Source of the DNA: Roseofilum reptotaenium CS-1145
GTDB lineage: Bacteria; Cyanobacteriota; Cyanobacteriia; Cyanobacteriales; Desertifilaceae
Direction of reading: 5' to 3'
Assembly (NCBI RefSeq): GCF_028330985.1
Contig: NZ_JAQMUE010000082.1
Span: forward strand, 1-64,000
Length of the DNA: 64,000 nucleotides
Shown here: positions 32,640-49,434 of the stretch, one piece after another
How positions within the stretch are numbered: position 1 is the first letter of the stretch
Layout: every line of letters starts with the position of its first letter
Translations under genes and position numbers: made by a program
Notes under the pieces: model-generated
The model's database searches: none
What the model was told of the DNA's origin: nothing
Seen by the model: the letters and a program-made list of their open reading frames with translations, nothing else

Positions 32640-35600
32640 ATGGCAACAACATCAGCAGGCGATCGCCCATTACCCTCCTGGAACAATACTCAAGCCGACT
32701 ATCCCCAAGATAAGTGCATCCATCAGTTATTTGAAGCCCAAGCCGAGCGAACCCCTGACTCGGTGGCTGTTGTATTCGAGTCTCAACAACTAACCTATAG
32801 GGAATTAAACGCCAAAGCCAATCAACTGGCTCGCTACTTGCAAAGGTTGGGAGTCGGACCAGAGGTATTGGTGGGTCTATGCGTCGATCGCTCCTTGGAC
32901 ATGGTAGTGGCTATGTTGGGAATCCTCAAAGCCGGTGGCGCTTATGTACCCTTAGACCCGGCCTATCCAGCAGAGCGTTTGGCTTTCATGCTCGCGGATG
33001 CTAACCTGTCAATCGCAGTCACTCAAGAGAAACTAGCATCAGGACTGCTGAATTCGAGCGCCCAGGCAACGCCTTTTGAGATCGTTGGCTTGGACAAAGA
33101 CTGGGAGAAGATATCGCAGCAGAGTGCAGAAAATGTAAATAGTACCATTCATTCTGACAACCTAGCCTACATTATCTACACTTCAGGTTCTACTGGAAAG
33201 CCAAAAGGCGTACAGATTACCCACAAGAGTGTGGTTTGTTCGCTCGACTACACTTGCAAGTATTTTGAACTAACAGAGTGCGATACCTTAGTTGCAGTAG
33301 CTAGTATTTGCTTCGATACCTCAGTAATGGAAATTTACTCTCCCCTGAATGTAGGGGCACGTCTGGTAATTGCAAGTGACGAAGCTACCAAAACCGGAAG
33401 GATATTAGCGCAGTTACTGACCTTATCCGGCGCTACCATTATGGTCAGCACTCCCTCTACTTGGCATATGGTGCTAGAAGCTGAGTGGGATGGTAACAAA
33501 CAGTTCAAAATAATTTGTGGTGGCGAAGCCCTATCGCGAAATCTAGCCAATCGGTTGCTAGAAAAAAGTTCTTACTTATGGAATTGCTACGGACCCACAG
33601 AAACGACGATATATTCAACTACATGCCAAGTTAGCCCGGGCGAAGGTTGCGTCCCCATTGGAAAACCAATTGATGGTGCCGAGGTTTATATACTCCTAGA
33701 ATCAGGAAAGCCAGCTCCTACAGGAGTTCCTGGAGAATTACATATTGGCGGTGCGACACGTCTGGCACGAGGTTATCTTAGCCGACCGGAACTCACTGAA
33801 GAAAAATTTATTCCTAACCTATTTTGTACGGGCGATCTCCTTTACAAAACAGGTGACTTAGCTCGCTACCTACCAGATGGCAACATTGAGTACCTAGGTC
33901 GGATCGACGACCAAGTAAAAATTCGCGGCTTCCGCATCGAACTGGGAGAAATTGAAGCGGTACTGCTCGAACACCCCGCCGCGAGCCAAGTTGTCGTAGC
34001 GGCGAGGGAAGATATAGCTAACAACAAGCGCCTAGTAGCTTATGTTGTCTCTTCCTTGTCCGATCCATCAAAAATAACTGTCGAAGAAGAGCAGGTTAAG
34101 CAATGGGGTAAACTATGGGATGAAGCCTACAAAAAGCCAGCAGAAGAGTGGGATTCTGCTCTCCACATTGGTGGCTGGAACGATAGCTATACCAAAAAGG
34201 CATTGCCGACCATCCAAGTGCAGGAGTGGGTGGACTGTACGGTAAAACGCATTCTCGCTTTGCAGCCGAAACGAGTGCTGGAAATCGGTTGTGGAACGGG
34301 GATGTTACTATTTCGCATCGCACCCCACTGCAAGCATTATTGGGGCACCGATGTTTCTGTAGAAGCAATCCGTTATGTCCAGCAAGAGATTAAGGACAAA
34401 ACTTTAGCACCGAACGTGACGCTGCGTGCAACTCCAGCAGACGACTTGGAGGGAATAGATGCTGGCTTGGATACCGTAGTAATTAATTCGGTCATTCCCA
34501 TGTTTCCCAGCATGGACTACCTCGTTCGCGTTTTGGAAAAGGTTGCCACTTTAGTCAAGCCTGGAGGTGCAATTTTTGTTGGAGATGTGTTGAGCAGACC
34601 GTTGCTAGAAGCATTTCATACCTCAGTGCAGTTGTATCAAGCCCCTGACTCTCTATCTACAGCGGCACTGCAACACGACATCCAGGAACGAATAGCCAGA
34701 GAAAAAAGATTAAATATTGACCTAGAATTCTTCGCAGCCCTAAAAGAGCATTTGCCGCAAATCAGTCATGTAGAAATTCAACTCAAGCCCGGCTATTCCC
34801 AAAACGAACTGACTCGCTTCCGTTATGATGTGGTTCTCCATATAGGCAAAAAAGCGCCCGCTTCCAATGCTCCAATTTATCTAAACTGGCAGCAAGATAG
34901 TTTGACCATAGCCGCCGTTCGCCAACAACTTCTAGAAGCATCCCCAGAAATGCTCGTAGTCGCTGGCGTTCCCAACCCCCGGACATGGGCAGATCTGCAA
35001 GCAATAGAATGGCTCGCCAGTCCCGAATGTCCCGAAACTGTAGGGGAACTGCGTCAAAATATTTCTCAAGCAGGAATTGAGCCGGAAGACTGGTGGCAAT
35101 TGCAGTCCGAGGTAGATTATCGAATTAACGTTACTTGGTCTAGCAATACCAGCGAGGCTTACTATGATGTCGTATTTGTCCGCAAGGATAGCAACATTAT
35201 TCCAGACAGCAGCATTATTTCGCCTCAAGAAACCCCTCAGCAAAACGAACCCAAACCTTGGAGTGCTTATGCCAATCTGCCCTACACCGGCAGCAAACCC
35301 AGTCAATTAATCCCTCAGTTGCGCCAGTTCCTGCGAGAAAAACTGCCGGATTATATGGTGCCATCGGCGTTTGTCCTTCTGGACGAACTCCCCCTGAACC
35401 CCAGTGGAAAAATTGACCGGCGCGCCCTGCCCGCACCCGATCGCTCCCGCCCGGTTCTGGATGTAGAGCTGGTATCGCCGCGAACTCCCACAGAAGAAAT
35501 TATCGCCGGAATTTGGGCAGAAGTATTGAGCCTGGACGAACTCGGAGTTTTAGACAATTTCTTTATGCTGGGGGGCGACTCCATCCAAGCGACGCAACTG

Positions 35601-38600
35601 GTATCGCGCGTACGCGATACCTTTGGTGTAGAGCTGTCATTGCATCAGTTGTTTGAATCGCCGACAGTGGCAGAATTAAGCGAAACCCTCTCAGGCGCTT
35701 CTCGCCAAAAATTGGCCCCGATCCAACCCGTGCCGCGAGATGGAGAAATGCCCCTATCTTTTGCCGAGCAACGCCTGTGGTTTCTGGATCGCTTGCAGGA
35801 AAAAAGCATCGCCTATAACGAGCAAGAGGCTTTGCGCTTGACGGGTTCGCTTTCTGTAGAAGCGCTACAAGGGGCGTTGCAAGAAATAGTGCGCCGTCAC
35901 GAAAGCTTGCGGACAAATTATCAAGCAGTTGATGGCTCTGCGGTGCGAACGATCGCGCCGGAACTGGATTTGCATATTCCCACGATTGACTTACAGCATT
36001 TGTCACCAGAAGAACAGCTATCCCAAGTACAGCAATTGAGCGATCGCGAAAGCGAGCAACCCTTTGACTTAGCCAACGATCCTTTGCTTCGAGTAACCCT
36101 ATTGCGGTTAGGGACTGATGACCATGTATTATTGCTGGGGATGCACCACATTATTACCGATGGCTGGTCGATGGGGGTATTTGCCAACGAGTTGGAAGCA
36201 TTCTACGGAACCCAAGTGTTGGGCTTGCCCTCACCGTTAGCCCAACTGCCAATCCAATATGCCGATTTTGCTTGCTGGCAGCGGCAGCCGGCGATCGCAG
36301 AAATACTTTCCCCACAACTGTCTTACTGGAAGCAACAGCTCGCAGGAGTTCCTCCTTTATTAGAACTGCCGACAGACTATCCCCGCCCGACGGTGCAAAC
36401 CTCGCGAGGGGGCAAAGAGTTTTTCGAGTTTGACTTTGAATTCACCGAACGACTCAAGCACCTGAGTCGAGAAAACGGAGTGACTCTCTTTATGACGCTG
36501 TTTGCCGCCTTTAGCACCCTACTATATCGCTATAGCAGCCAGCCCGATATAGTTGTAGGCACGCCGATCGCCAACCGAAATCGCAGCGAAATAGAAGCAG
36601 CGATCGGCTTTTTTGTCAATACGCTGGTGTTGCGATCGCGCTTTGAGGGCAATCCCAGTTTCGTTGAATTATTGGCTCGGGTACGGCAGGTATCTTTGGA
36701 TGCCTACACGAACCAAGATTTGCCCTTCGAGCAGTTGGTGGAGGCACTGCAACCCCCGCGCACTCTCTCGCACTCGCCCGTATTTCAGGTGATGTTCGCC
36801 TTGCAAAATGCGCCTCGGAAACCTGTGGAATTACCGGGATTGAGTTTTAATTGGTTGCCTTTGGAAACGGCAAAAGCCAAGTTTGACTTGTTCCTGTCGA
36901 TGGAAGAAACAGAAGCGGGATTAATTGGCTACTGGGAATACAATCGCGATTTGTTCGAGCCAGGAACTATCCGCCGCATGATGGGACATTTCCAGACTGT
37001 GCTAGTGGCAATATTGGCAAACCCAGAGGCGCGAGTTGGCGAATTGCCCTTGCTGAGTGCAGCAGAGAGCCACCAGTTGTTAGTAGAGTGGAACGATACT
37101 TTTGCCGAATATCCCCAGGAAAAGTGCATCCAGGAGTTGTTCGAGGAACAAGTAGAGCGGACTCCCGATGCCGTAGCAGTAGTTTTTGAGGAGGAACAAC
37201 TAACCTATCGGGAGCTGAATGCGAAAGCAAACCAATTGGCGCGATATTTGCAAGGCTTGGGAGTCGGGGCAGAGGTGCTGGTAGGGATATGCGTAGAGCG
37301 ATCGCTCTCTACGATCGTAGGATTGTTGGGAATTCTCAAAGCAGGTGGTGCTTATCTGCCTTTAGACCCGAATTATCCATCAGAACGAATAGCCGATATA
37401 CTGGCAGATGCTGGAGTTTCGATGTTATTAGCGATAGGAAAAGGAGTAGTCCCACCGCAGAACCAAACCCAAGTCATATGTCTCGATACGGCTTGGGAAG
37501 AAATCGCCAAACAGAGTGAAGGAAATCTGCCGATCTCGGTAACGGTAAATAACTTAGCGTATGTCATCTACACATCAGGCTCTACGGGCAAACCAAAAGG
37601 AGTTGCGATCGAACATCGCTCTATTTTGAATCTGGCGCGGGCAATCGAAGGAGCGATCGCAGCCACAAGTGACGAGCCTCTATGTAAAATCACTTTAAAT
37701 GGGCCTTTATTTTTCGATACTTCAGTAAAACAAATCGTACAACTCCTGTACGGTCGCACACTTTATATCGTGCCGGAAAACATTCGATTGGATTCGAGGC
37801 GCTTGTTATCCTACCTACTCGATTGCCAAATCGACCTGTTTGACTGTACCCCATCCCAACTCAGACTGCTTGTGGCGGACGGATTCCTAAACAGCGATAC
37901 CCCTCCTAAGTATGTGTTAGTGGGAGGAGAACCGATTGATGAATCCACTTGGACTGCTTTGAGACAGGCTAAAAGTCGTCAATTTTATAATCTTTACGGA
38001 CCGACTGAATGCACGGTAGATGCAACGGTTTGTGCTTTAGGAAAGACTGGCGATACGCCCACGATCGGTCGTCCCATTGCCAATACCCAAATTTATATTC
38101 TGGACAACTATCTCCAACCCGTCCCTATCGGCGTACCGGGCGAACTCCATATCGGCGGCGCGGGTTTAGCGCGAGGTTATCTGAACCGTCCCGAATTAAC
38201 TGAGCAAAAGTTTATCCCCAATCCTTTTAGCGACGAACCCGGTTCGCGCTTATACAAAACTGGCGATAAGGCGCGCTATCTTCCCGATGGCAACATTGAA
38301 TTTATCGGACGCATCGACAATCAGGTGAAAATCCGAGGTTTCCGCATCGAACTGGGGGAAATCGAAGCAACGCTGACTCAACACCCAGAAATCCGTGAAG
38401 CCGTGGTTATGGTTCGCGAAGATACTCCAGCAGATAAACGACTTGTCGCGTATATCGTCACCAAAGAAGAAGTGACATCCGCCGATTTGCGCAGTTTCCT
38501 GAAAACTAAGCTCCCTGACTACATGGTTCCCAGTGCATTTGTCTTTTTAGAGGCAATCCCTCTAACTCCCAATGGCAAATGCGATCGCGAAGCGTTGCGG

Positions 38601-39731
38601 ATGCAATATCGCCGCGCCCTACCCGCACCGGATACAGAACATCGAGAAGAAGGCGCGATCGCCCCCCGCACTCCCACCGAACTGCACCTGTCCCAAATTT
38701 GGTCGGAAGTTCTCAGTATTCCCACCGTGGGAGTCCGAGACAACTTCTTTGAATTGGGCGGTCATTCCCTGTTAGCAGTACGCTTGATGGCTCGCATCGA
38801 ACGGCACTTTGGTCAAAATCTGCCTCTGGCCACTCTATTTCAAAGCTCTACGGTTGAGGAACAAGCAAAACTTCTGGATTCGGATCAAGATTTTCAGCTC
38901 GGATCTCCCCTAGTGAACATTAAGTCGGGGGGAGAGGGAGCGCCACTGTTTTTGATTCCTCCCAGCAGCGGCCAAGTCTTATTTTATCTAGACTTAGTTC
39001 GCAATCTGGAAACCGAGCGACCGATTTACGGTTTGCAATTGCCCGGTTTAAACGGAGAACGAGAACCGATAACTTCCCCAGAAGAACTAGCGGCGTTTGC
39101 TGTCCGAGAGATAAAAGTAGTGCAGCCGCACGGACCTTATTATCTGGCAGGTTTTTGCGTGGGAGGTCTCTTAGCATTTGAAATCGCCCAACAGTTAAAG
39201 CAGCAAGACGACACTGTAGAATTGCTCGCAATGATAGAAACTCACTCTCCCAAGTTACATAAACTTCTCAACGATCGCATGGCAGAAGAAAACTTAGGAT
39301 ATGAGATCCTGTATGCAATCGGTTTTGCTCAAGAACTCAGCGCTAGTTCTGGCAAACCCTTATCCGTGTCTCCTCAACAATTGAAGCGTCTGAACTTGGA
39401 GGAGCAGTTGGAATACATCCTGGAACAGGCAAAGCTCCAGAATATTATCCCCTCAGAGGTAGGAGTACAGCAGATGCAAAACCTGTATCGAGTTTATCAC
39501 GCAACGGGATGGGCAACCTATGACTATCAGGCGCGACCCTACCTTGGTGCAATTCACCTGTTCAATGCCAGTCAACCTTCGATGGAACTTGACACTGATG
39601 CAACTCTGGGTTGGAAAGATTTAGTTAAAGGTCAAATCGAAGTTCATCAGATTCCGGGGGATCATTATTCTATTATTCGCGAGCCAGGTGTCGGTCTTTT
39701 AACTCAAAAGTTAGCAGTCTGTCTGAGATGA
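32640..39731 (+). CDS. Two-module NRPS: A-N-methyltransferase-PCP-C-A-PCP-TE
   Basis: 2363 residues. The chain starts with a C-A linker remnant (WNNTQADYPQDKC) and an adenylation domain; a SAM-methyltransferase is embedded in it (VLEIGCGTG, residues 546-554), typical of N-methylating A domains. Carrier serines are S981 (GGDS) and S2043 (GGHS). The single condensation domain has HHIITDG (H1169, H1170, D1174). The second A domain, by hand alignment to the GrsA pocket, reads near DTKDLGLVDK, close to the published Glu code. The thioesterase has GFCVGG with C2173 and E2200 where Ser and Asp are usual. The expected product is an N-methylated dipeptide. The missing first C domain makes it a self-loading starter. 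Confidence 0.92.
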   Translation: MATTSAGDRPLPSWNNTQADYPQDKCIHQLFEAQAERTPDSVAVVFESQQLTYRELNAKANQLARYLQRLGVGPEVLVGLCVDRSLDMVVAMLGILKAGGAYVPLDPAYPAERLAFMLADANLSIAVTQEKLASGLLNSSAQATPFEIVGLDKDWEKISQQSAENVNSTIHSDNLAYIIYTSGSTGKPKGVQITHKSVVCSLDYTCKYFELTECDTLVAVASICFDTSVMEIYSPLNVGARLVIASDEATKTGRILAQLLTLSGATIMVSTPSTWHMVLEAEWDGNKQFKIICGGEALSRNLANRLLEKSSYLWNCYGPTETTIYSTTCQVSPGEGCVPIGKPIDGAEVYILLESGKPAPTGVPGELHIGGATRLARGYLSRPELTEEKFIPNLFCTGDLLYKTGDLARYLPDGNIEYLGRIDDQVKIRGFRIELGEIEAVLLEHPAASQVVVAAREDIANNKRLVAYVVSSLSDPSKITVEEEQVKQWGKLWDEAYKKPAEEWDSALHIGGWNDSYTKKALPTIQVQEWVDCTVKRILALQPKRVLEIGCGTGMLLFRIAPHCKHYWGTDVSVEAIRYVQQEIKDKTLAPNVTLRATPADDLEGIDAGLDTVVINSVIPMFPSMDYLVRVLEKVATLVKPGGAIFVGDVLSRPLLEAFHTSVQLYQAPDSLSTAALQHDIQERIAREKRLNIDLEFFAALKEHLPQISHVEIQLKPGYSQNELTRFRYDVVLHIGKKAPASNAPIYLNWQQDSLTIAAVRQQLLEASPEMLVVAGVPNPRTWADLQAIEWLASPECPETVGELRQNISQAGIEPEDWWQLQSEVDYRINVTWSSNTSEAYYDVVFVRKDSNIIPDSSIISPQETPQQNEPKPWSAYANLPYTGSKPSQLIPQLRQFLREKLPDYMVPSAFVLLDELPLNPSGKIDRRALPAPDRSRPVLDVELVSPRTPTEEIIAGIWAEVLSLDELGVLDNFFMLGGDSIQATQLVSRVRDTFGVELSLHQLFESPTVAELSETLSGASRQKLAPIQPVPRDGEMPLSFAEQRLWFLDRLQEKSIAYNEQEALRLTGSLSVEALQGALQEIVRRHESLRTNYQAVDGSAVRTIAPELDLHIPTIDLQHLSPEEQLSQVQQLSDRESEQPFDLANDPLLRVTLLRLGTDDHVLLLGMHHIITDGWSMGVFANELEAFYGTQVLGLPSPLAQLPIQYADFACWQRQPAIAEILSPQLSYWKQQLAGVPPLLELPTDYPRPTVQTSRGGKEFFEFDFEFTERLKHLSRENGVTLFMTLFAAFSTLLYRYSSQPDIVVGTPIANRNRSEIEAAIGFFVNTLVLRSRFEGNPSFVELLARVRQVSLDAYTNQDLPFEQLVEALQPPRTLSHSPVFQVMFALQNAPRKPVELPGLSFNWLPLETAKAKFDLFLSMEETEAGLIGYWEYNRDLFEPGTIRRMMGHFQTVLVAILANPEARVGELPLLSAAESHQLLVEWNDTFAEYPQEKCIQELFEEQVERTPDAVAVVFEEEQLTYRELNAKANQLARYLQGLGVGAEVLVGICVERSLSTIVGLLGILKAGGAYLPLDPNYPSERIADILADAGVSMLLAIGKGVVPPQNQTQVICLDTAWEEIAKQSEGNLPISVTVNNLAYVIYTSGSTGKPKGVAIEHRSILNLARAIEGAIAATSDEPLCKITLNGPLFFDTSVKQIVQLLYGRTLYIVPENIRLDSRRLLSYLLDCQIDLFDCTPSQLRLLVADGFLNSDTPPKYVLVGGEPIDESTWTALRQAKSRQFYNLYGPTECTVDATVCALGKTGDTPTIGRPIANTQIYILDNYLQPVPIGVPGELHIGGAGLARGYLNRPELTEQKFIPNPFSDEPGSRLYKTGDKARYLPDGNIEFIGRIDNQVKIRGFRIELGEIEATLTQHPEIREAVVMVREDTPADKRLVAYIVTKEEVTSADLRSFLKTKLPDYMVPSAFVFLEAIPLTPNGKCDREALRMQYRRALPAPDTEHREEGAIAPRTPTELHLSQIWSEVLSIPTVGVRDNFFELGGHSLLAVRLMARIERHFGQNLPLATLFQSSTVEEQAKLLDSDQDFQLGSPLVNIKSGGEGAPLFLIPPSSGQVLFYLDLVRNLETERPIYGLQLPGLNGEREPITSPEELAAFAVREIKVVQPHGPYYLAGFCVGGLLAFEIAQQLKQQDDTVELLAMIETHSPKLHKLLNDRMAEENLGYEILYAIGFAQELSASSGKPLSVSPQQLKRLNLEEQLEYILEQAKLQNIIPSEVGVQQMQNLYRVYHATGWATYDYQARPYLGAIHLFNASQPSMELDTDATLGWKDLVKGQIEVHQIPGDHYSIIREPGVGLLTQKLAVCLR

Positions 39732-39787
39732 TGCAGCAGCCTCACCTCTGGGTTCTCGCCCAAAAGTTGGCAGCTTGCTTGAATTAG
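39728..39787 (+). pseudogene. Orphan thioesterase 3' end left behind the first NRPS gene
   Basis: The frame ATGATGCAGCAGCCTCACCT... reads MMQQPHLWVLAQKLAACLN and stop. The second NRPS ends MMRSPHVGVLAQKLGACLN with the same bases beyond its stop (GTTAAAGAGCGATC). So a second thioesterase tail lies in another frame directly after the stop of the first NRPS, whose own tail ends in LLTQKLAVCLR. Confidence 0.8.
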
Positions 39788-40014
39788 GTTAAAGAGCGAT
39801 CGCAGTTAAATTGAAAAGCTAAATTGAGCAAAAATAATTGACGCGATCGCCCTTTACGCTACTTTAGAGATTGCCAACCCAGCTCTTTCCTGGCAGGTTG
39901 CTCCACAATCAAGAGGAGCATTAAGACTATTCTCTCAATCTCTAAAAAGCCGCTCTCTTGTCTTCATCCCATCCATCAATTCACGGGGTTTTCAGCATAT
40001 CTCTGATAATGATA

Positions 40015-40106
40015 TATAGCAGAGAAAGGGAGAGTTACGACATTTTCTATTGCCTCTTGCCTCAAACCATAACCTCACTGTCCTAATCAACTCTTTCACT
40101 GCTATA
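40015..40106. repeat. 92-bp MITE-like element with 14-bp terminal inverted repeats, copy 3
   Basis: The left end TATAGCAGAGAAAG and the right end CTTTCACTGCTATA pair with one mismatch in 14. The left end is shared with copies 1 and 2, but the interior (CCTCTTGCCTCAAACC) is different. It lies 12 bases before the ATG of the second NRPS gene. Confidence 0.7.
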
Positions 40107-40118
40107 GCAAAAATATTT

Positions 40119-43100
40119 ATGTTCGCTGACAAAACACTTAATCGCCCCATCGGTATAGTCTTTGAGGAACAAGTATGGAAAGCTCCCGATCGGGTGGCGA
40201 TCGCCAGCAACAATCACCAATGGACTTATCAAACCTTAAACAGTCGTGCCAATGCAATAGCCAATGATATCCTCAAGAGTTGCGACAATGGTTTAGAGAG
40301 AATCGCCCTACTGCTAGAACATGACGGGCCAGCGATCGCCAGTATCTTGGCAGTCCTCAAAGTTGGCAAAACCTATATTCCCCTCGATCCAACCTATCCC
40401 AGTTCCAGACTGAAATCTATTGTGCAAGATTCCCAACCCCAAATTATCTTGACCAATAATAGAAACTGGGATTTAGCACAAAAGATAACTCAAGCAAAAA
40501 TAGCGATCGTCAATATCGATAATCTAGAGTATGCAACGACTGTCTCTAACCTCGTATTGTCAATTTCTCCAGAAACACCAGCCTATATTCTCTACACATC
40601 TGGTTCGACAGGAGTTCCCAAAGGAGTCGTGCAAAATCACCGCAACATTCTCCATTTCATCAGAGCTTATCGTAAAACGATTCATCTTTCGAGTTCGGAC
40701 AAACTCACCCTGCTATCTTCCTATAGTTTTGATGCCGCAATAATCGATATATTTGCCGCCTTGCTAAATGGAGCAACCCTATGCTTATTTGACCTAAAGC
40801 AAGAAAAAATCACAATTTATCACTCAACCCCAACAGTTTATCGGCAATTAATCGATATTTTGAACGAAAATAGTCAAGCGGTTCGGACTGAGCTAGACTC
40901 AATTCGTTTAGTAGTATTGGGAGGAGAAGCTGCCTTAACAACAGACTTTGAATCCTATAAAAAATATTTCGCTCCAGACTGCCTATTGGTAAATTTGATG
41001 GGATGTTCTGAATCGTCCTTCAACTTCCAATATACCCTAAACAAGGAAACAGAACTCAGCGATCGAGGCTTACTTCCAGTCGGTTATCCAGTTCCAGAAA
41101 CAGAGTTATTATTGCTCGATGAAGCAGGAAATCCTGCACTTGACTCTGGAGAAATTGCCATTCGCAGCCCCTATATAGCCTTGGGATACTGGCAAAATCC
41201 AGAACTAACAAAAGTCGTATTTCTACCCGATCCAGAAGGCAGAAAACAGTGCATTTATCGCAGCGGAGACTTGGGTAGATTAAGAACAGATGGGGTATTA
41301 GAGTTTTTAGGACGCAAGGATTTTCAAGTCAAAATCAGAGGGTTTCGCGTCGAACTTGGAGAACTCGAAGCCACTCTCGGGCAGCACCCAAAGGTACTAT
41401 CCTCCGTAGCAACTAGCTCCAAAGAGAGTCCGGGGAACCTGTATTTAGTCGCTTATATAGTTCCCGATCGCCAACGGGTCCCAACTATAAGCGAATTGCG
41501 TAGCTTCTTGTCGGAAAGACTGCCAGACTACATGATGCCAAGTGCGTTTGTCATGCTAGATACTTTGCCCCTGACTCCCAACAATAAAATAGATCGTCTC
41601 GCTCTGCCAGCTCCGAAATTTTCCCGTCTCCATCTATCAACACCTTTCGTGCAACCCAGTAGCAAGAACCAAAAAGTTTTAGTAGATATTTGGAGTGCTT
41701 TGCTAAACGTAGAAGTCGGCATACACGACAATTTCTTTGAACTGGGCGGACATTCCCTACTGGCCACTAGGATTTTAAGTCGCATCCGCAATGCGTTCGA
41801 TCTCGATTTACCCGTTCGTGCCTTATTTGAATGTCCAACTATTGCCGAGTTAACCCTGGCGATAGAGACACGCATTAAGGGAGACTTAGAACCAAAAAAA
41901 AATGCGATCGCACCAGCTCCGCGAAGTCAAAACTTACCGTCATCTTTTATTCAGGAAGAATTTTGGTATCTGATTCACCTAGCTCCAAATAGTGCCATCT
42001 ACTATACGATTAAAGCAGCATGGCGTTTAACAGGAACTCTGAATCGAACTGCCCTAAAACGAGCCATCGCCGAAATGGTCAGCCGTCACGAAATTTTGCG
42101 CACCACATTCAAATTGACTGAGGGTTTGTTGGTGCAAGTCGTAGCTTCTTCTTTACAGATATTCGTGCCAGAAATCGATTTGCAAAACCTCTCACCAGAG
42201 GAACAATCAGAAACGCTTAAAAGATATTCCCAAAAAGAATTAGAACGTTCTTTTGACCTAGTTAACGGTCCTTTGTTCAGAGTTATGGTCTTGCAGTTGG
42301 GAGTAAAATCCCATGTTTTACTGTTAACGATGAGCCACATTATTGGTGATGCGTGGTCAACGGGAATATTTTTCCAAGAGTTGATGACTATTTACTCGGC
42401 TTTTGCCTCCGGTAAACCCTCACCTTTGCCAAAGCTGTCCGTACAATATGCTGATTTTGCTTGCTGGCAACGGGAGCGGTTAACCGACCAAATGTTAAAA
42501 CCTCAGCTTGAATATTGGAAACAACAACTCTCAGAGAGTCTACCCCTTTTGGAACTTCCTACAGACCGTTCTCGGCCTTTAGAGCAGAGTTTCCGAGGAG
42601 GCAGACAATCTTTTCACGCACCCGCCGACCTGACCGAAAAACTATTGGAGTTAAGTCAGGGAGAAGGAGCGACTTTATATATGACTTTATTGGCAGCGTT
42701 GGCAACGTTGCTCTTTCGCTACAGCTCTCAAGAGGAGATTAATATTGGCACCCCAGTCAGCCAGCGAAATGTTATAGAAACTGAATCTTTAATCGGTCCA
42801 TTTTTGAATGTGCTGGTGCTGGGGATTAAATTACAAAACAATCCCACTTTTCAAGATTTGCTTTCTCAAGTAAGGCAAACCGTTCTAGAAGCTTTGGTTC
42901 ATCAAGAGGTGCCATACCCAAAAGTTCTAGAAACCATACAACCAGAACGGCAACTCAGCCACAATCCTCTGTTTCAGGTGATATTGGATTGGGTTAACCT
43001 ACCAACGAGCAAACTAGAGCAACTAGAAACTTCTAGTCTGACAACCGAGCCACTGCTGGAAATCCAAGATATTGAGGATAAAACGACTGCGGTCGATCTA

Positions 43101-46100
43101 TGCCTTTTGGTGTGGGAAACTGAAGGCGAATTGAACGGATATTTCCAATACAGCACGGATTTATTTGATGCGGAAACTATCTCGCGGATGGCGGAACATT
43201 TTCAGGTTTTGCTCCAAGCAATAGTGACTAATCCTGAAGTGCAAATTAGCCAACTTCTGTTGCTGACTCAGTTGGAACGCCATCAGTTGTTCGTAGAGTG
43301 GAACAATACAACGACGGAGTATCCCCAGGATCGGGGTATACATCAGTTATTCGAGCAACAAGTTGAACGAACTCCCGATGCTGTTGCAGTTATTTTTGAG
43401 AACCAGGGACTAACTTATCGAGAATTGAATGGGAAAGCCAATCAACTGGCGCGGTATTTGCAATGTTTGGGAGTCAAACCAGAGGTGCTAGTGGGGATTT
43501 GTGTAGAGCGATCGCTGGAAATGATCATAGGATTATTGGGGATTCTCAAAGCTGGTGGGGCTTATGTACCCTTAGATCCAGATTATCCAAGCGATCGCAT
43601 CGCCAGCATCTTTTCTTCTTCCAAGCTCAAGGTGTTGGTGACTCAGGAAACCGTATTGACCTCTTTACCGCAACATTCTGCACGTTCGGTATGTTTAGAT
43701 GCAGAATCAGAGCAAATAGCTTGGTTTAGCGATCGCAATCTCGACATAACTTCTCAACCTGAGAATCTAGCATACGTCATTTATACCTCCGGCTCTACCG
43801 GACAACCCAAAGGCGTAGAAATAGGCCACCAATCCCTTGTTAACCTGGTGAGTGCAATGCAAGTCACCCTCGGTTTCAGCAACAGCGATTCTATTCTGGC
43901 AGCTACCACGATCGGTTTTGACATGGCAGTTCCGGAGATTTATTTGCCACTGATCGTAGGGGGAAAAACGATTGTAGTCTCTAGGGAAGTGGCTACCGAC
44001 GGCAAGCAGCTCTTGTCAACCTTGAAAAACTCCGGTGCTACTGTGATGCAGGCAACTCCAGTCACGGCGAAAATGCTGCTAGCGGCTGGTTGGCACAGTA
44101 GTAGTGGATTCAAAATGATTTGCGGTGGCGAAGCCGTACCGCGAGAACTCGCTGTTCGTCTGATAGAAAAAGGCGCTTGTCTCTGGAATCTATATGGTCC
44201 TACCGAGACTACAGTTTGGTCAACTGCCTGCCATCTCAATGCCTCCAGTTATTCCTCCCAGCGCCAAGAGATCGACTACTCAATTGGCACTCCCATTGCC
44301 AATACCCAAATCTATATTCTCGACAAGCATCTCCAACCCGTCCCTATCGGCGTATCTGGAGAACTCCACATTGGAGGTGCGGGGCTAGCCAGAGGCTATC
44401 ACAACCATCCGGAATTAACTGCCCAAAAATTTATCCCCAACCCCTTGAGCAACGAACCTGGTTCTCGCCTTTACAAAACAGGTGATTTAGCTCGCTATCT
44501 CCCGGATGGCAACATCGAATTTATCGGACGCATCGACAACCAAGTAAAAATCCGAGGCTTCCGCATCGAACTCGGAGAAATAGAAGCCACGTTAACTCAA
44601 TATCCAAGCTTGCGCGAAGCCGTGGTTGTTGTCCGTGAAGATTCGACCGGGGATAAACGCCTCGTTGCCTATATTGTTACTCAGGAACAAGTAGCGGTAT
44701 CTGTTTTGCGAATGTTCCTGAAAACCAAGCTACCTGACTACATGGTTCCAAGCGCATTTGTCTTTTTAGAGGCAATACCTCTAACTCCCAACGGCAAAAT
44801 AGACCGCCGCGCCCTACCGAAACCCGATGCTTCTAGTTTCGGCACTTTAACAAAAATCGTCCCTCGCACTCCTACGGAAGAACTGCTAGCCGCTATCTGG
44901 ACTGAAGTATTGGGATTGGACAAGGTGGGAATAGAAGAGAACTTCTTTGAAATTGGGGGACATTCTCTGAAAGCGATGCAAGCGATATCGAGGATAAGCG
45001 ATACATTTTCCGTAGATATCCCGTTAAAAAAGCTATTTCAATTACCGACAATTGCAGAACTGGCTAAAGGAATAGAAACGGATCGCACTGAGGGAAAAAC
45101 TGGGTTGCAACTGCCAGCAATTGCTGTAACAGCAAGAGATACAACTATTCCCTTATCCTTTGCCCAACAAAGACTGTGGTTTCTCTATCTCCTGGAAGGG
45201 AAAAATGCCACTTACAATATTCCCGTAGCAATCCACCTAGATGGTTTTCTGAATATTGCCGCCCTACAGGCAGCTTTAGTAGAAATAGTTCGCCGTCACG
45301 ACATTTTGCGCGTCACGTTTCAAGCAGAGAACGGGACTCCATTTCAAGCGATCGCCACCCCGTCTAACGGAGAATTTCCAGTTATAGACCTACAAAATAT
45401 ACCCGAAGCCAGTCAAGAACGCAAAGTACACCGATTCCTCACAGAAGAAGCAAGCCATTTTTTTGACATCACTACCGAACGATTAGTCCGCTTCAAGCTA
45501 TTGCGTCTGAGTCCCCAGTCTAATATCCTACTGCTTACGATGCACCATATCGTCTCTGATGATTGGTCTTTGGGGGTATTCTTCCGGGAGTTACAGGTTT
45601 TATATGCAGCGTTTTCTCAACAACAACCTTCCCCTTTACCAGAGCTGCCCATCCAATATGCAGATTTTGCCATTTGGCAGCGTCAGTACTTGACTCCAGA
45701 AGTCCTGGCTACCCAAGTAAACTACTGGAAACGGCAGTTAGCTGAAATTCCGCCTCAATTAGAATTGCCAACAGACCGACCCCGCCCTTCAGTTCGGGGA
45801 TTTCGAGGTGCGAGTGAGTCTTTTTCTGTACCTGTAGAATTGACGGCTAAACTTTTGCAAGTCAGCGAACAATATAGTGCGACTCTATTCATGACTCTCT
45901 TGGCAGCTTTTAGCACCTTACTTTATCGTTATAGCGGCCAAACAGATATTGTGGTGGGGTCTCCCATTGCCAACCGCGATCGCCCGGAAATAGAGTCCCT
46001 AATTGGCTTCTTTGTCAATACCTTAGTGTTGCGAACTACCTTTGCCGAAAATCCCAGTTTTGTTTCCTTGCTACATCAGTTACGAGAAACCTGTCTGGAT

Positions 46101-49082
46101 GCCTATTCTCATGGAGATGTACCCTTCGAGCAATTGGTAGAAGAATTGCAACCCGAGCGCAACCCAAGCTATACACCCCTATTTCAAGTCATGTTTGCAC
46201 TGCAATATGAAGAGGAGGAAAAGACTGGGGAAAGTTGGGAATTATCCGGATTAAAAGTCAGCCGTTTGGCAACGAATAGCGCAACTTCCAAATTTGACAT
46301 GACTCTGTGGATGAGAGTAACAGAGTCAGGATTAACGGGAAGGTGGGAATACAATACCGATCTGTTTGATGCCGAGACTATCTACCGGATGGCCTTACAT
46401 TTCCAGAATGTATTGGAGGCGATTGTCGCTTGTCCTGAAGAAAAGGTGGCTTTTTTGCCCTTGATGGCCCAAGCCGAACGAGATCGACTGTTGCTAGCGT
46501 CGAACAATACTCGTGCGCAATACGCGGATAATTATTGCCTTCATCAGGTCTTTGAACAGCAAGTAGAACGAACGCCAGATGCGATCGCAGTAGTATTTGA
46601 GGAAGAACAAGTTACCTATTGGGAGCTGAACGCACGGGCCAATCAACTGGCGCGTTACCTGCAAAGCTTGGGGGTAGGGCCGGAGGTGCTAGTGGGGATT
46701 TGTGTAGAGCGATCGCTCTCTACGATCGTAGGATTATTAGGAATTCTCAAAGCAGGCGGAGCATACCTACCTTTAGACCCAGATTATCCACCAGAGCGTC
46801 TCGCCTATATCTTTTCTAACTCCCAAGCTGCGGTATTAGTAACAACGCAGGAATTAACCGTCCGATTACAGGTCTTACCCGATCTCGTTGTCTGTTTAGA
46901 TAGTGACTGGGAATTGATATCGAGTTGCAGCACTGACAATCTATCATCTCCAGTTCGTCCTGAGAATTTAGCATACATAATTTATACGTCCGGTTCCACA
47001 GGAAAACCCAAAGGAGTGGAAATCTGCCATCAATCTCTGGTCAACTTTCTTCGTGGGATGGCAATAAAACCCGGCTTAACTGATACTGATATTATCTTAG
47101 CCGTCACTACTCTCAGTTTTGATATTGCTGCCCTAGAGATTTACTTACCCTTAATCGTGGGAGCAAAAATAGTCTTAGCGAGTCGAGAGGTCGCTACTGA
47201 CGGTCAACAACTGTTGTCCAAATTGGAGCTAGAGGGCACGACCGCGATGCAAGCGACTCCAGCAACTTGGCAAATGCTGCTAACTTCCGGTTGGCAAGGG
47301 AATTCGCACTTGAAAATACTTTGTGGTGGAGAACCCTTGTCTAAGCAACTAGCCATTCAACTTCTGGAAAAAGGCTCTTCCCTCTGGAACCTATATGGTC
47401 CTACAGAAGCGACAGTGTGGTCAACAGTTTGCCCGGTTAGTGCTTCCGATCTCATAGAGAGCAAAGAAAATGTGTCAGTGGCGATCGGTCGTCCGATCGC
47501 TAATACCCAAATCTATATTCTCGATAACTATCTCCAGCCTGTCCCCATAGGCGTACCAGGAGAACTCCATATCGGCGGTGCAGGGTTAGCGCGAGGCTAT
47601 CTCAATCGCCCCGAATTAACCGAGCAAAAGTTTATCTCCAATCCCTTTAGTGACGAACCGGGTTCGCGCCTTTACAAAACCGGCGATAAGGCACGCTATC
47701 TCCCGGATGGCAAGATTGAATTTATCGGACGCATCGACAACCAAGTAAAAATACGAGGCTTCCGCATCGAACTCGGAGAGATTGAAGCAACTTTAGCCCA
47801 ACATCCCAATGTGGGTGAAGCCGTGGTTATTGTTCGCGAAGATACTCCAGCAGATAAACAACTGGTCGCCTACATGGTCACTAAAGAAGAAGTGACCTCC
47901 TCTGATGTGCGCAGTTTCTTGAAAACGAAGCTACCCAACTATATGGTTCCCAGTGTGTTTGTCTTTTTAGAGGCATTGCCTCTAACGCCTAATGGCAAAG
48001 TAAATCGCCGCGCCCTCCCTGCACCAGATACAGAACAGAGAGAAAAAGGAGCGATCGCCCCCCGCACCACTACCGAACTGCAACTATGCCAAATTTGGTC
48101 GGAAGTTCTCAAGATTTCCACCCTTGGAGTACAAGACAACTTCTTTGAATTGGGGGGTCATTCCCTGTTAGCCGTTCGCTTGATGGCTCGCATCGAACGG
48201 CAATTAGGCATTCACCTACCTTTGACTACTCTGTTTACAGAACCGACAATCGAAAGCCAAGCTAATCTGCTCAAGGCAAAGAATGATATTAGCTCCCATT
48301 CCCCCTTAGTGCCGATTCAAGCTTCAGGAGAGTTGCCACCATTTTTCTGCGTGCATCCGGTTGGCGGCAACGTTCTGTGCTACGCACAGTTAGCCCGACA
48401 CCTGGGCAACAACCGACCGTTTTACGGCTTGCAGTCTGTGGGGTTATCTAGCGAAAAAGAACCCTTAACCAAAATAGAGGAGATGGCAGCTATTTATATA
48501 GAAGCATTGCAGGAAATTCAGCCTCACGGGCCGTATTATTTAGGCGGTTGGTCGATGGGTGGAGTCGTTGCTTGGGAAATGGTACGGCAGTTGCAAACTT
48601 TGGGGCAAAACGTTGAGCTATTGGCGTTGATTGACAGCTATGTACCGAGCCAGAATCAAAAACCGATTGATGATGCTTTTTTGATTAATGCTCTATTGGG
48701 CGATCTCGGCGGTATATTTGGCACAGAGTTCTCAATTTCGACCCATGAACTTCATCAACTTCAACCCTCAGAACAGTTAGGTTGCATCCTCACTGAAGCT
48801 AAACGCCTGAATATTTTGCCGCGAGAAATTTCCCTGAAACAGGTGGATCGGTTGTTTGAGGTTTTCAAAGCAAACCTGAAGGCGATATACGATTATCAAC
48901 CTCAGCCTTATTGGGGTCGAGTAGCTCTATTTTCAGCCAATGAACTAGAAGAAGACCGAGGGTGGAGTAGTTGGGTGACAGGGAAGTTGGAAACTTATAT
49001 GATTCCCGGCGATCATTATGGGATGATGCGATCGCCCCACGTCGGGGTTCTCGCCCAAAAGCTGGGAGCTTGTTTGAATTAA
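40119..49082 (+). CDS. Three-module NRPS: A-PCP-C-A-PCP-C-A-PCP-TE
   Basis: 2987 residues from ATG 40119 (a TTG at 40050 lies inside the repeat and is unlikely). Carrier serines are S546, S1616 and S2682. The two C domains depart from HHxxxDG: SHIIGDA (S739, H740, A745) and HHIVSDD (H1809, H1810, D1815). The first A domain appears to lack about 15 residues between its A4 and A5 regions. Hand alignment of the third A domain gives DILQLGLVWK, which matches the glycine code; the second (DMPQIGLVWK) is similar. The thioesterase is ordinary, with GWSMGG (S2812) and D2839. A tripeptide with a C-terminal Gly is the simplest product. Same strand as, and 387 bases after, the first NRPS. Confidence 0.92.
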   Translation: MFADKTLNRPIGIVFEEQVWKAPDRVAIASNNHQWTYQTLNSRANAIANDILKSCDNGLERIALLLEHDGPAIASILAVLKVGKTYIPLDPTYPSSRLKSIVQDSQPQIILTNNRNWDLAQKITQAKIAIVNIDNLEYATTVSNLVLSISPETPAYILYTSGSTGVPKGVVQNHRNILHFIRAYRKTIHLSSSDKLTLLSSYSFDAAIIDIFAALLNGATLCLFDLKQEKITIYHSTPTVYRQLIDILNENSQAVRTELDSIRLVVLGGEAALTTDFESYKKYFAPDCLLVNLMGCSESSFNFQYTLNKETELSDRGLLPVGYPVPETELLLLDEAGNPALDSGEIAIRSPYIALGYWQNPELTKVVFLPDPEGRKQCIYRSGDLGRLRTDGVLEFLGRKDFQVKIRGFRVELGELEATLGQHPKVLSSVATSSKESPGNLYLVAYIVPDRQRVPTISELRSFLSERLPDYMMPSAFVMLDTLPLTPNNKIDRLALPAPKFSRLHLSTPFVQPSSKNQKVLVDIWSALLNVEVGIHDNFFELGGHSLLATRILSRIRNAFDLDLPVRALFECPTIAELTLAIETRIKGDLEPKKNAIAPAPRSQNLPSSFIQEEFWYLIHLAPNSAIYYTIKAAWRLTGTLNRTALKRAIAEMVSRHEILRTTFKLTEGLLVQVVASSLQIFVPEIDLQNLSPEEQSETLKRYSQKELERSFDLVNGPLFRVMVLQLGVKSHVLLLTMSHIIGDAWSTGIFFQELMTIYSAFASGKPSPLPKLSVQYADFACWQRERLTDQMLKPQLEYWKQQLSESLPLLELPTDRSRPLEQSFRGGRQSFHAPADLTEKLLELSQGEGATLYMTLLAALATLLFRYSSQEEINIGTPVSQRNVIETESLIGPFLNVLVLGIKLQNNPTFQDLLSQVRQTVLEALVHQEVPYPKVLETIQPERQLSHNPLFQVILDWVNLPTSKLEQLETSSLTTEPLLEIQDIEDKTTAVDLCLLVWETEGELNGYFQYSTDLFDAETISRMAEHFQVLLQAIVTNPEVQISQLLLLTQLERHQLFVEWNNTTTEYPQDRGIHQLFEQQVERTPDAVAVIFENQGLTYRELNGKANQLARYLQCLGVKPEVLVGICVERSLEMIIGLLGILKAGGAYVPLDPDYPSDRIASIFSSSKLKVLVTQETVLTSLPQHSARSVCLDAESEQIAWFSDRNLDITSQPENLAYVIYTSGSTGQPKGVEIGHQSLVNLVSAMQVTLGFSNSDSILAATTIGFDMAVPEIYLPLIVGGKTIVVSREVATDGKQLLSTLKNSGATVMQATPVTAKMLLAAGWHSSSGFKMICGGEAVPRELAVRLIEKGACLWNLYGPTETTVWSTACHLNASSYSSQRQEIDYSIGTPIANTQIYILDKHLQPVPIGVSGELHIGGAGLARGYHNHPELTAQKFIPNPLSNEPGSRLYKTGDLARYLPDGNIEFIGRIDNQVKIRGFRIELGEIEATLTQYPSLREAVVVVREDSTGDKRLVAYIVTQEQVAVSVLRMFLKTKLPDYMVPSAFVFLEAIPLTPNGKIDRRALPKPDASSFGTLTKIVPRTPTEELLAAIWTEVLGLDKVGIEENFFEIGGHSLKAMQAISRISDTFSVDIPLKKLFQLPTIAELAKGIETDRTEGKTGLQLPAIAVTARDTTIPLSFAQQRLWFLYLLEGKNATYNIPVAIHLDGFLNIAALQAALVEIVRRHDILRVTFQAENGTPFQAIATPSNGEFPVIDLQNIPEASQERKVHRFLTEEASHFFDITTERLVRFKLLRLSPQSNILLLTMHHIVSDDWSLGVFFRELQVLYAAFSQQQPSPLPELPIQYADFAIWQRQYLTPEVLATQVNYWKRQLAEIPPQLELPTDRPRPSVRGFRGASESFSVPVELTAKLLQVSEQYSATLFMTLLAAFSTLLYRYSGQTDIVVGSPIANRDRPEIESLIGFFVNTLVLRTTFAENPSFVSLLHQLRETCLDAYSHGDVPFEQLVEELQPERNPSYTPLFQVMFALQYEEEEKTGESWELSGLKVSRLATNSATSKFDMTLWMRVTESGLTGRWEYNTDLFDAETIYRMALHFQNVLEAIVACPEEKVAFLPLMAQAERDRLLLASNNTRAQYADNYCLHQVFEQQVERTPDAIAVVFEEEQVTYWELNARANQLARYLQSLGVGPEVLVGICVERSLSTIVGLLGILKAGGAYLPLDPDYPPERLAYIFSNSQAAVLVTTQELTVRLQVLPDLVVCLDSDWELISSCSTDNLSSPVRPENLAYIIYTSGSTGKPKGVEICHQSLVNFLRGMAIKPGLTDTDIILAVTTLSFDIAALEIYLPLIVGAKIVLASREVATDGQQLLSKLELEGTTAMQATPATWQMLLTSGWQGNSHLKILCGGEPLSKQLAIQLLEKGSSLWNLYGPTEATVWSTVCPVSASDLIESKENVSVAIGRPIANTQIYILDNYLQPVPIGVPGELHIGGAGLARGYLNRPELTEQKFISNPFSDEPGSRLYKTGDKARYLPDGKIEFIGRIDNQVKIRGFRIELGEIEATLAQHPNVGEAVVIVREDTPADKQLVAYMVTKEEVTSSDVRSFLKTKLPNYMVPSVFVFLEALPLTPNGKVNRRALPAPDTEQREKGAIAPRTTTELQLCQIWSEVLKISTLGVQDNFFELGGHSLLAVRLMARIERQLGIHLPLTTLFTEPTIESQANLLKAKNDISSHSPLVPIQASGELPPFFCVHPVGGNVLCYAQLARHLGNNRPFYGLQSVGLSSEKEPLTKIEEMAAIYIEALQEIQPHGPYYLGGWSMGGVVAWEMVRQLQTLGQNVELLALIDSYVPSQNQKPIDDAFLINALLGDLGGIFGTEFSISTHELHQLQPSEQLGCILTEAKRLNILPREISLKQVDRLFEVFKANLKAIYDYQPQPYWGRVALFSANELEEDRGWSSWVTGKLETYMIPGDHYGMMRSPHVGVLAQKLGACLN

Positions 49083-49434
49083 GTTAAAGAGCGATCTAAT
49101 ATCAAGTCCAGTTAATTGGCTATGATGCAATAGTTCGCCTTGGGGAACAGGAAACAGGCAACAATGTAGGAGTGGAAACGCACTATCCATAGCGAAACTT
49201 AGAAGAATCTTTCGACTAAAATAACCTGTAATCCAGTCAGGGTAAGGAAACCAGGTCGAAGACTGAAAAATAGCTGAAACTCTAGCCCTAACTGGATTGG
49301 TACTTGATCGATGTTAAATCCTTGTTCTGTATAGCTTTGAACTAGATATCAGTGCTGATTTTTGTCTAAGTCCCATGACTGTTGTTGCTACCCTGGTCTT
49401 TAATGACTTCCCTAAATAGGTTAGAGTTTTGCGA
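49083..49434. other. Gap after the NRPS genes, with a long inverted repeat
   Basis: 352 bases without a gene. AATCCAGTCAGGG (49230-49242) and CCCTAACTGGATT (49286-49298) form an inverted repeat with one mismatch and a 43-base loop. The first arm's TCCAGTCAGGGT recurs at about 55557. It lies between convergent transcripts and may act as a terminator or be the trace of a small mobile element. Confidence 0.4.

Follow-up and report, generated by a model that had tools for sequence, protein, structure and literature searches.

Why does the end of a thioesterase (TE) lie directly behind an NRPS gene that already carries a complete TE with a different end? This question is raised by a locus of Roseofilum reptotaenium CS-1145, in a stretch of 64,000 nucleotides of contig NZ_JAQMUE010000082.1 (the window), where two NRPS genes, NRPS1 and NRPS2, follow each other on the forward strand. 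R. reptotaenium is the predominant organism of coral black band disease mats (PMC9967302), and no description of the gene pair was found in the accessible part of that Roseofilum paper. NRPS1 ends in a TE by profile, since PF00975 matches aa 2102-2347, behind the PCP, with 101 bits (cut-off 26.4). We argue that the TE of NRPS1 was very probably replaced in this strain and that the tail of the old TE was left behind. The features are collected in Table 1.

The locus was also compared with that of a close relative, genome G001. There, ten flanking genes (five per side, 93-100% protein identity) surround one NRPS gene instead of the two present in the window (32640-49082), and therefore the locus has been rebuilt. 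Behind NRPS2, about 300 bases (49116-49412) have no counterpart at the corresponding site of G001. Segments of 49105-49420 occur again at 13 further places of the genome, at 72-88%, and are probably small repeats; a search for inverted repeats of 12 or more bases found none in this region.

Table 1. Features of the NRPS1-NRPS2 locus (positions in the window)
Feature	Position	Strand	Evidence
NRPS1, 2363 aa, A-MT-PCP-C-A-PCP-TE	32640..39731	+	ORF, Pfam domains
Putative exchanged core of second A domain (aa ~1601-1820), closest to Sy3, the third gene of the Symploca SIO1C2 array	37440..38099	+	
Left breakpoint of the swapped TE, inside the last PCP behind GGHSLLAVRLMARIE	38799..38815	+	Change point of informative sites
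Putative acquired segment: PCP end, linker, complete Cys-type TE, stop codon	38816..39731	+	77% to Sy2 vs 39-44% to seven other relatives (aa 2059-2363); clade 100/100
Codon of predicted nucleophile Cys2173 (GFCVGG)	39156..39158	+	
Glu2200, at the usual place of the catalytic Asp after strand beta-6	39237..39239	+	Alignment, model secondary structure, codon
Predicted catalytic His2342 (GDHYS)	39663..39665	+	
Right junction: donor stop codon joined to recipient Met-Met codons; possible microhomology up to GATGA	39724..39731	+	Alignment of window, Sy2 and orthologs
Remnant: last 20 codons of the former TE, stop included	39728..39787	+	blastn, alignment to NRPS2 and orthologs
3' flank that once belonged to the old gene, GTTAAAGAGCGATCGC	39788..39803	+	15/16 to G003, 14/16 to NRPS2, 14/16 to G004, 10/16 to G001
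NRPS2, A-PCP-C-A-PCP-C-A-PCP-TE	40119..49082	+	ORF, Pfam; listed ORF starts at TTG 40050, ATG 40119 is the chosen start
NRPS2 TE, Ser type (GWSMGG), the class formerly borne by NRPS1	48237..49082	+	

A thioesterase remnant behind NRPS1

A sequence-only reading of the window had claimed that a TE C-terminus like the end of NRPS2 overlaps and follows the NRPS1 stop codon, that the similarity continues past the stop codon, and that the present NRPS1 TE has another tail. All three observations were borne out. The 20 codons of the remnant, ATG ATG CAG CAG CCT CAC CTC TGG GTT CTC GCC CAA AAG TTG GCA GCT TGC TTG AAT TAG, translate as MMQQPHLWVLAQKLAACLN and a stop, one frame back from NRPS1, whose stop is the TGA at 39729-39731. 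The remnant shares 49 of 60 bases with the end of NRPS2 (MMRSPHVGVLAQKLGACLN and stop), and behind the stop codon 14 of 16 bases agree with those that follow NRPS2, GTTAAAGAGCGATCTA. The tail of NRPS1 proper, EPGVGLLTQKLAVCLR and stop, differs from both.

Chance similarity, which the reading had named as a ground for refutation, was rejected by blastn, resampling and a scan of other TE tails. When 39600-40050 was searched against the window with blastn, one strong match besides itself was found (52 nt at 92%, E 6.6e-15), and the seven remaining matches were exact words of 13-15 nt with E of at least 0.022. Over 39728-39803, 63 of 76 bases are identical to the NRPS2 end, while the best that any of 200 Markov-resampled 76-mers reached anywhere in the window was 42. 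In the strain's own genome (5.67 Mb, 113 contigs), 39680-39830 matched only itself and the NRPS2 end at E 0.001. The 300 bases 3' of 54 TE ends (distinct strings, from the fetched loci) were also scanned; the remnant reached 76, against 36 for the next region and a maximum of 42 among 108 shuffled controls.

The first ATG of the remnant overlaps the NRPS1 stop codon (ATGA) and leaves a 19-codon ORF open, probably by chance. We consider it very improbable that the 60 bases have a function of their own, for example as a coupled 19-codon ORF at this ATGA or as a conserved 3' mRNA signal. The overlap does exist, the ORF is still intact, and the flank behind the stop is common to relatives; however, the same bases are an in-frame TE end in those relatives, and nothing alike was seen in the other 53 regions scanned behind TEs. 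The 11 differences between the remnant and the NRPS2 tail also speak against this reading by their even spread over the codon positions (4, 3 and 4), a number too small to prove relaxation. Relative to the in-frame tails compared, two of the 60 bases were private to the remnant when judged by eye, the first base of CTC and the middle base of the first CAG. Two bases are not enough for dating the remnant or for showing relaxed selection.

NRPS1 in relatives

An NRPS1 ortholog is present in four of five other genomes of the genus (G001, G003, G004 and G005), and each ends in an NRPS2-like TE of the Ser type; in the fifth, G002, there was no NRPS1 match at the cut-offs used. The ortholog of G008, from the same family, is split into two ORFs and also ends in an NRPS2-like TE. 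The last TE codons are in register with the remnant in all five of these genomes and in Oscillatoria SIO1A7, with some variation in where the ortholog ends: its stop comes two residues sooner in G005 and three residues further on in G001. In G005 (locus L050, 9537-9539), the early stop leaves the old last codons behind it, a small natural truncation. The stretch behind NRPS1 is a gene remnant: its homologs in the relatives are read in frame as coding sequence, and here it lies out of frame.

Named loci that were fetched through the MT region gave the same picture. Six of the 12, which include G001, G004 and G008 again, have a TE at E 1e-20, and the other six have no TE match. The seven TE places on these six loci resemble the NRPS2 TE (58-86%) more closely than the NRPS1 TE (36-43%), without exception. 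In the family sample, the 23 TE places besides that of NRPS1 all have a Ser nucleophile.

The remnant could descend either from NRPS1 itself or from a copy of the NRPS2 end that was moved behind NRPS1. With the NRPS1 ortholog in G003 it has 52 of 60 bases in common, plus 15 of 16 behind the stop; for NRPS2 the counts are 49 of 60 and 14 of 16, and in register with the G005 ortholog it shares 49 of 61. Because it is slightly closer to the G003 ortholog than to NRPS2, the remnant is probably the former end of NRPS1 itself, and a moved copy is the less likely source, by this small margin of bases.

Source of the present thioesterase

Similarity between NRPS1 and its orthologs falls sharply at aa ~2053. 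Upstream of this point, over aa 1851-2053, NRPS1 is 89, 84 and 89% identical to G004, G001 and G005, 69% to Sy2 and 71-83% to the remaining four relatives, with G003 at just 71%. Downstream of it, the closest gene is Sy2 (Table 1), the middle one of three NRPS1-like genes on one strand in Symploca sp. SIO1C2 (G528). Sy2 bears the nearest TE found, at 76% identity, and it ends in EKLAVCLT and a TGA stop at the same codon where NRPS1 ends in QKLAVCLR. No remnant was found within 222 bases behind the Sy2 stop. The three Symploca genes (loci L119 and L120) stand in a row and carry two Ser-type TEs and one Cys-type TE.

Searches were carried out in samples of larger groups at family, order and phylum level. 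In the order sample (388 genomes), relatives of the NRPS1 TE at 54-76% occur at eight places in seven genomes; besides the Sy2 TE, the six further genomes and a second place in G528 hold TEs that are 54-57% identical. No TE place in the family sample (10 genomes) exceeded 45%, the best other match in the phylum sample (386 genomes) was 43%, and the best match on plasmids was 38%. No donor was found in the strain's own genome, where the best TE outside the window is 33% identical.

The sequence-only reading had proposed that an NRPS2-like TE was replaced and that its 3' end stayed in place. This proposal is supported by the comparison with relatives that the reading itself had asked for: the NRPS1 orthologs of G001, G003, G004, G005 and G008 carry the ancestral TE in register at this site. 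The drop in similarity at aa ~2053 and the gain in similarity to a different TE clade also show replacement.

Breakpoints and the proposed event

The left breakpoint was located through informative sites from 38400 on, defined by agreement of four or more of the five recipient rows against Sy2; where NRPS1 matched neither side, the site was left out. At the best single change point (Table 1), NRPS1 follows the recipients at 71 of 74 sites on the left and Sy2 at 203 of 248 sites on the right. On the right side, similarity to Sy2 reaches the stop codon, similarity to the orthologs begins at 39727 (GATGATGC), and TGA is common to both. The new TE runs directly into the remnant with nothing between them. 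Inside the tract, then, NRPS1 is closer kin to another gene than to its ortholog, with a breakpoint at each side, as in a domain exchange.

The left end lies in conserved PCP DNA. The right end shares TGA with Sy2 and GATGATGC with the recipients, and the right joint is out of register, as the donor end was placed 20 codons ahead of the recipient's own end. The tail remained because of this; an in-register joint would leave nothing. With Sy2, at 77% identity, as the proxy for the donor, a microhomology joint is our inference.

From these joints, a sequence of steps can be proposed. The ancestral NRPS1 would have ended in a Ser-type TE, as its orthologs do, and the incoming DNA would have brought the Cys-type TE of an NRPS1-like gene from another filamentous cyanobacterium. 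The 5' end may have been set by homologous recombination in the conserved PCP stretch. The 3' end would have been joined illegitimately over a few bases of microhomology, donor stop to resident ATGATG, 20 codons before the old stop. NRPS1 would thereby have gained an entire TE that ends at a stop of its own, and the old gene's final 20 codons and 3' flank would persist behind it, unread. That a single event of this form, with homology in the PCP and a microhomology joint, produced the present gene seems to us more likely than not. What the sequences show directly is the earlier state in relatives, the new TE, both breakpoints and the scar; the single event, how the DNA was transferred, the joint over microhomology and a change of release chemistry are inferences beyond these.

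Three other routes to the same joint were weighed. The first is a deletion within a tandem array, in which a Cys-TE gene stood upstream of a Ser-TE gene and about 7 kb was lost from the first stop to 20 codons before the second. A single deletion of this kind accounts for a junction at the stop codon, and Symploca SIO1C2 does have a Cys-TE gene followed by a same-strand Ser-TE gene, with an opposite-strand ORF between them. However, the body of NRPS1 (aa 701-1540) is 86-88% identical to the Ser-TE orthologs of SIO1A7 and G003 and 73% to Sy2, so that a chimera in the PCP would be needed first, and no Cys-type TE was present among the same-genus TEs found outside the window. We regard this deletion as unlikely.

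Insertion of the Cys TE upstream of the whole old TE, followed by trimming of the latter to its last 20 codons, would leave the same final arrangement, and old TE DNA that was no longer used would be free to decay. Such a history requires two events, though, and the new TE abuts the remnant directly; we hold it to be quite unlikely. An assembly artefact that joined two haplotypes or paralogs is highly improbable. No more than about 5 bases are shared across the right joint, which is unexpected from an assembler, the reading frame and a proper stop are kept, and the genome has no near relative of the NRPS1 TE elsewhere; set against this are the repetitive nature of NRPS modules, the draft state of the genome (113 contigs) and the theoretical possibility that a misjoined repeat produced the left breakpoint. 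Replacement of the TE with its old tail left in place is the reading followed below.

Predicted class of the acquired thioesterase

To place the NRPS1 TE, a set of 53 hits was reduced to 52 by dropping one truncated duplicate. The nucleophile place is occupied by GFCVG in nine of these TEs and by Ser in 43. The nine Cys TEs form one clade at 100/100 (all 200 bootstrap trees), within which the window and Sy2 pair at 100/99. This placement of the acquired TE implies that the swap changed the TE class. The NRPS1 TE carries the putative signature of a type I TE, a GxSxG or GxCxG elbow with a catalytic His, in the form of GFCVG and GDH. The residue after beta-6 is Glu in eight of the nine Cys TEs and Gln in one. 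The alignment also places a D after beta-7 in all nine (9/9), and the corresponding strand is at 239-244 of the model.

The AlphaFold model of the NRPS1 TE had a mean pLDDT of 82.7 and a pTM of 0.85, with residues 1-21 under 50. In a fold search, AB3403 of Acinetobacter baumannii (PDB 4zxh) was the best match (Z 32.7, rmsd 2.1, 274 aligned) and the next had a Z of 27.8. AB3403 is also the best solved relative by sequence (E 6.5e-37), and it likewise has a Cys nucleophile; it has Asp after beta-6 (MIDTRAP), whereas the NRPS1 TE has Glu (MIETHSP). According to the accessible part of PMC11298585, AB3403 is uncharacterised and, besides ObiF and SulM, is the sole TE with a Cys nucleophile among the structurally characterised NRPS TEs. 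ObiF1 and SulM are like the NRPS1 TE in having a Cys nucleophile in a type I TE (PMC11298585; PMC6668435, in their accessible parts). Their Asp stands after beta-7, and their products are a beta-lactone or a monobactam (PMC11298585, same part). The fold match of ObiF1 to the NRPS1 TE is weaker than that of AB3403 (Z 21.5), and SulM is absent from the 50 fold matches listed. The Gln-Cys-Asn motif given for SulM in that part of PMC11298585 is replaced by Phe-Cys-Val in the NRPS1 TE. Judging by residues and clade, a Ser TE would have been replaced by a Cys-class TE of unnamed chemistry, and product release may have changed with it.

Other tracts of NRPS1

The TE is not the only part of NRPS1 with shifted kinship. 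The second A core stands out, with aa 1601-1850 being 77% identical to Sy3 versus 36-45% to seven other relatives, and the Asub and PCP that follow it return to the genus type. A motif rule for substrate codes parsed some but not all A domains. For the second A domain of NRPS1 we tentatively take the code as DTK-D-LGLVDK, with its fourth letter set by eye, and it may resemble a Glu code. Over aa 401-700 (the A1 end and MT; 33840-34739), NRPS1 is close to G005 (83%) and more distant from the seven others (59-70%). For the A1 core (aa 101-400), none of the eight relatives is a near one, with identities of 36-58%. Because kinship shifts at aa 401-700, in the second A core and in the TE, NRPS1 is a mosaic that includes at least three such tracts, the TE among them.

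A fuller reading is possible, and we offer it tentatively. The TE class would have been exchanged from Ser to Cys/Glu/His through a cut in the PCP after LLAVRLMARIE, and the last A core would have been exchanged as well, at some time. The last building block and the release of the product would both have changed, and the scar would mark a natural working junction.

Relation to known systems

The papers cited in this section are compared on the basis of their accessible parts. NRPS genes diversify by recombination in which A cores are exchanged and the Asub-T interface is kept (PMC8097286, Mol Biol Evol 2021). NRPS1 resembles these mosaics in that its tracts come from other clusters or species and its A2-core tract keeps the Asub and the Asub-T interface. 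A break inside a T domain also has precedent, because one exception in that study exchanged part of the T domain too (PMC8097286). Unlike the A-core swaps, which change the amino acid (PMC8097286), the unit exchanged in NRPS1 would be the terminal TE, and a piece of the replaced domain remains. Cusperin and nostocyclopeptide offer another natural change of release domain in cyanobacterial megasynthases; the difference there is between a TE and a reductive domain, and no scar is described in the accessible part of that source (PMC12184294).

The proposed mechanism also has a known counterpart in homology-facilitated illegitimate recombination, reportedly treated by de Vries and Wackernagel in 2002. 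In this process, one end is set by homology and the other over 3-10 bp (cited in PMC6382021). It is known from transformation experiments (PMC6382021), while for NRPS1 it is suggested by a natural joint. A literature search, with subscription journals largely outside its reach, found no natural TE swap with a scar. The shuffling of NRPS domains is already known; an exchange of TE class with a retained scar and sharp joints is a useful and unusual example of it.

To our knowledge, natural swaps in NRPS genes are usually deduced from mosaic similarity alone. Here, thanks to the retained piece, a single genome reveals the state of the recipient, which way the exchange ran and the 3' joint. Should the enzyme be functional, it would represent a natural TE exchange that was cut inside the PCP and not in the PCP-TE linker, which bears on the engineering of release domains. 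The finding also points to a Cys-type TE clade of filamentous cyanobacteria for which even the nearest solved relative, AB3403, is uncharacterised.
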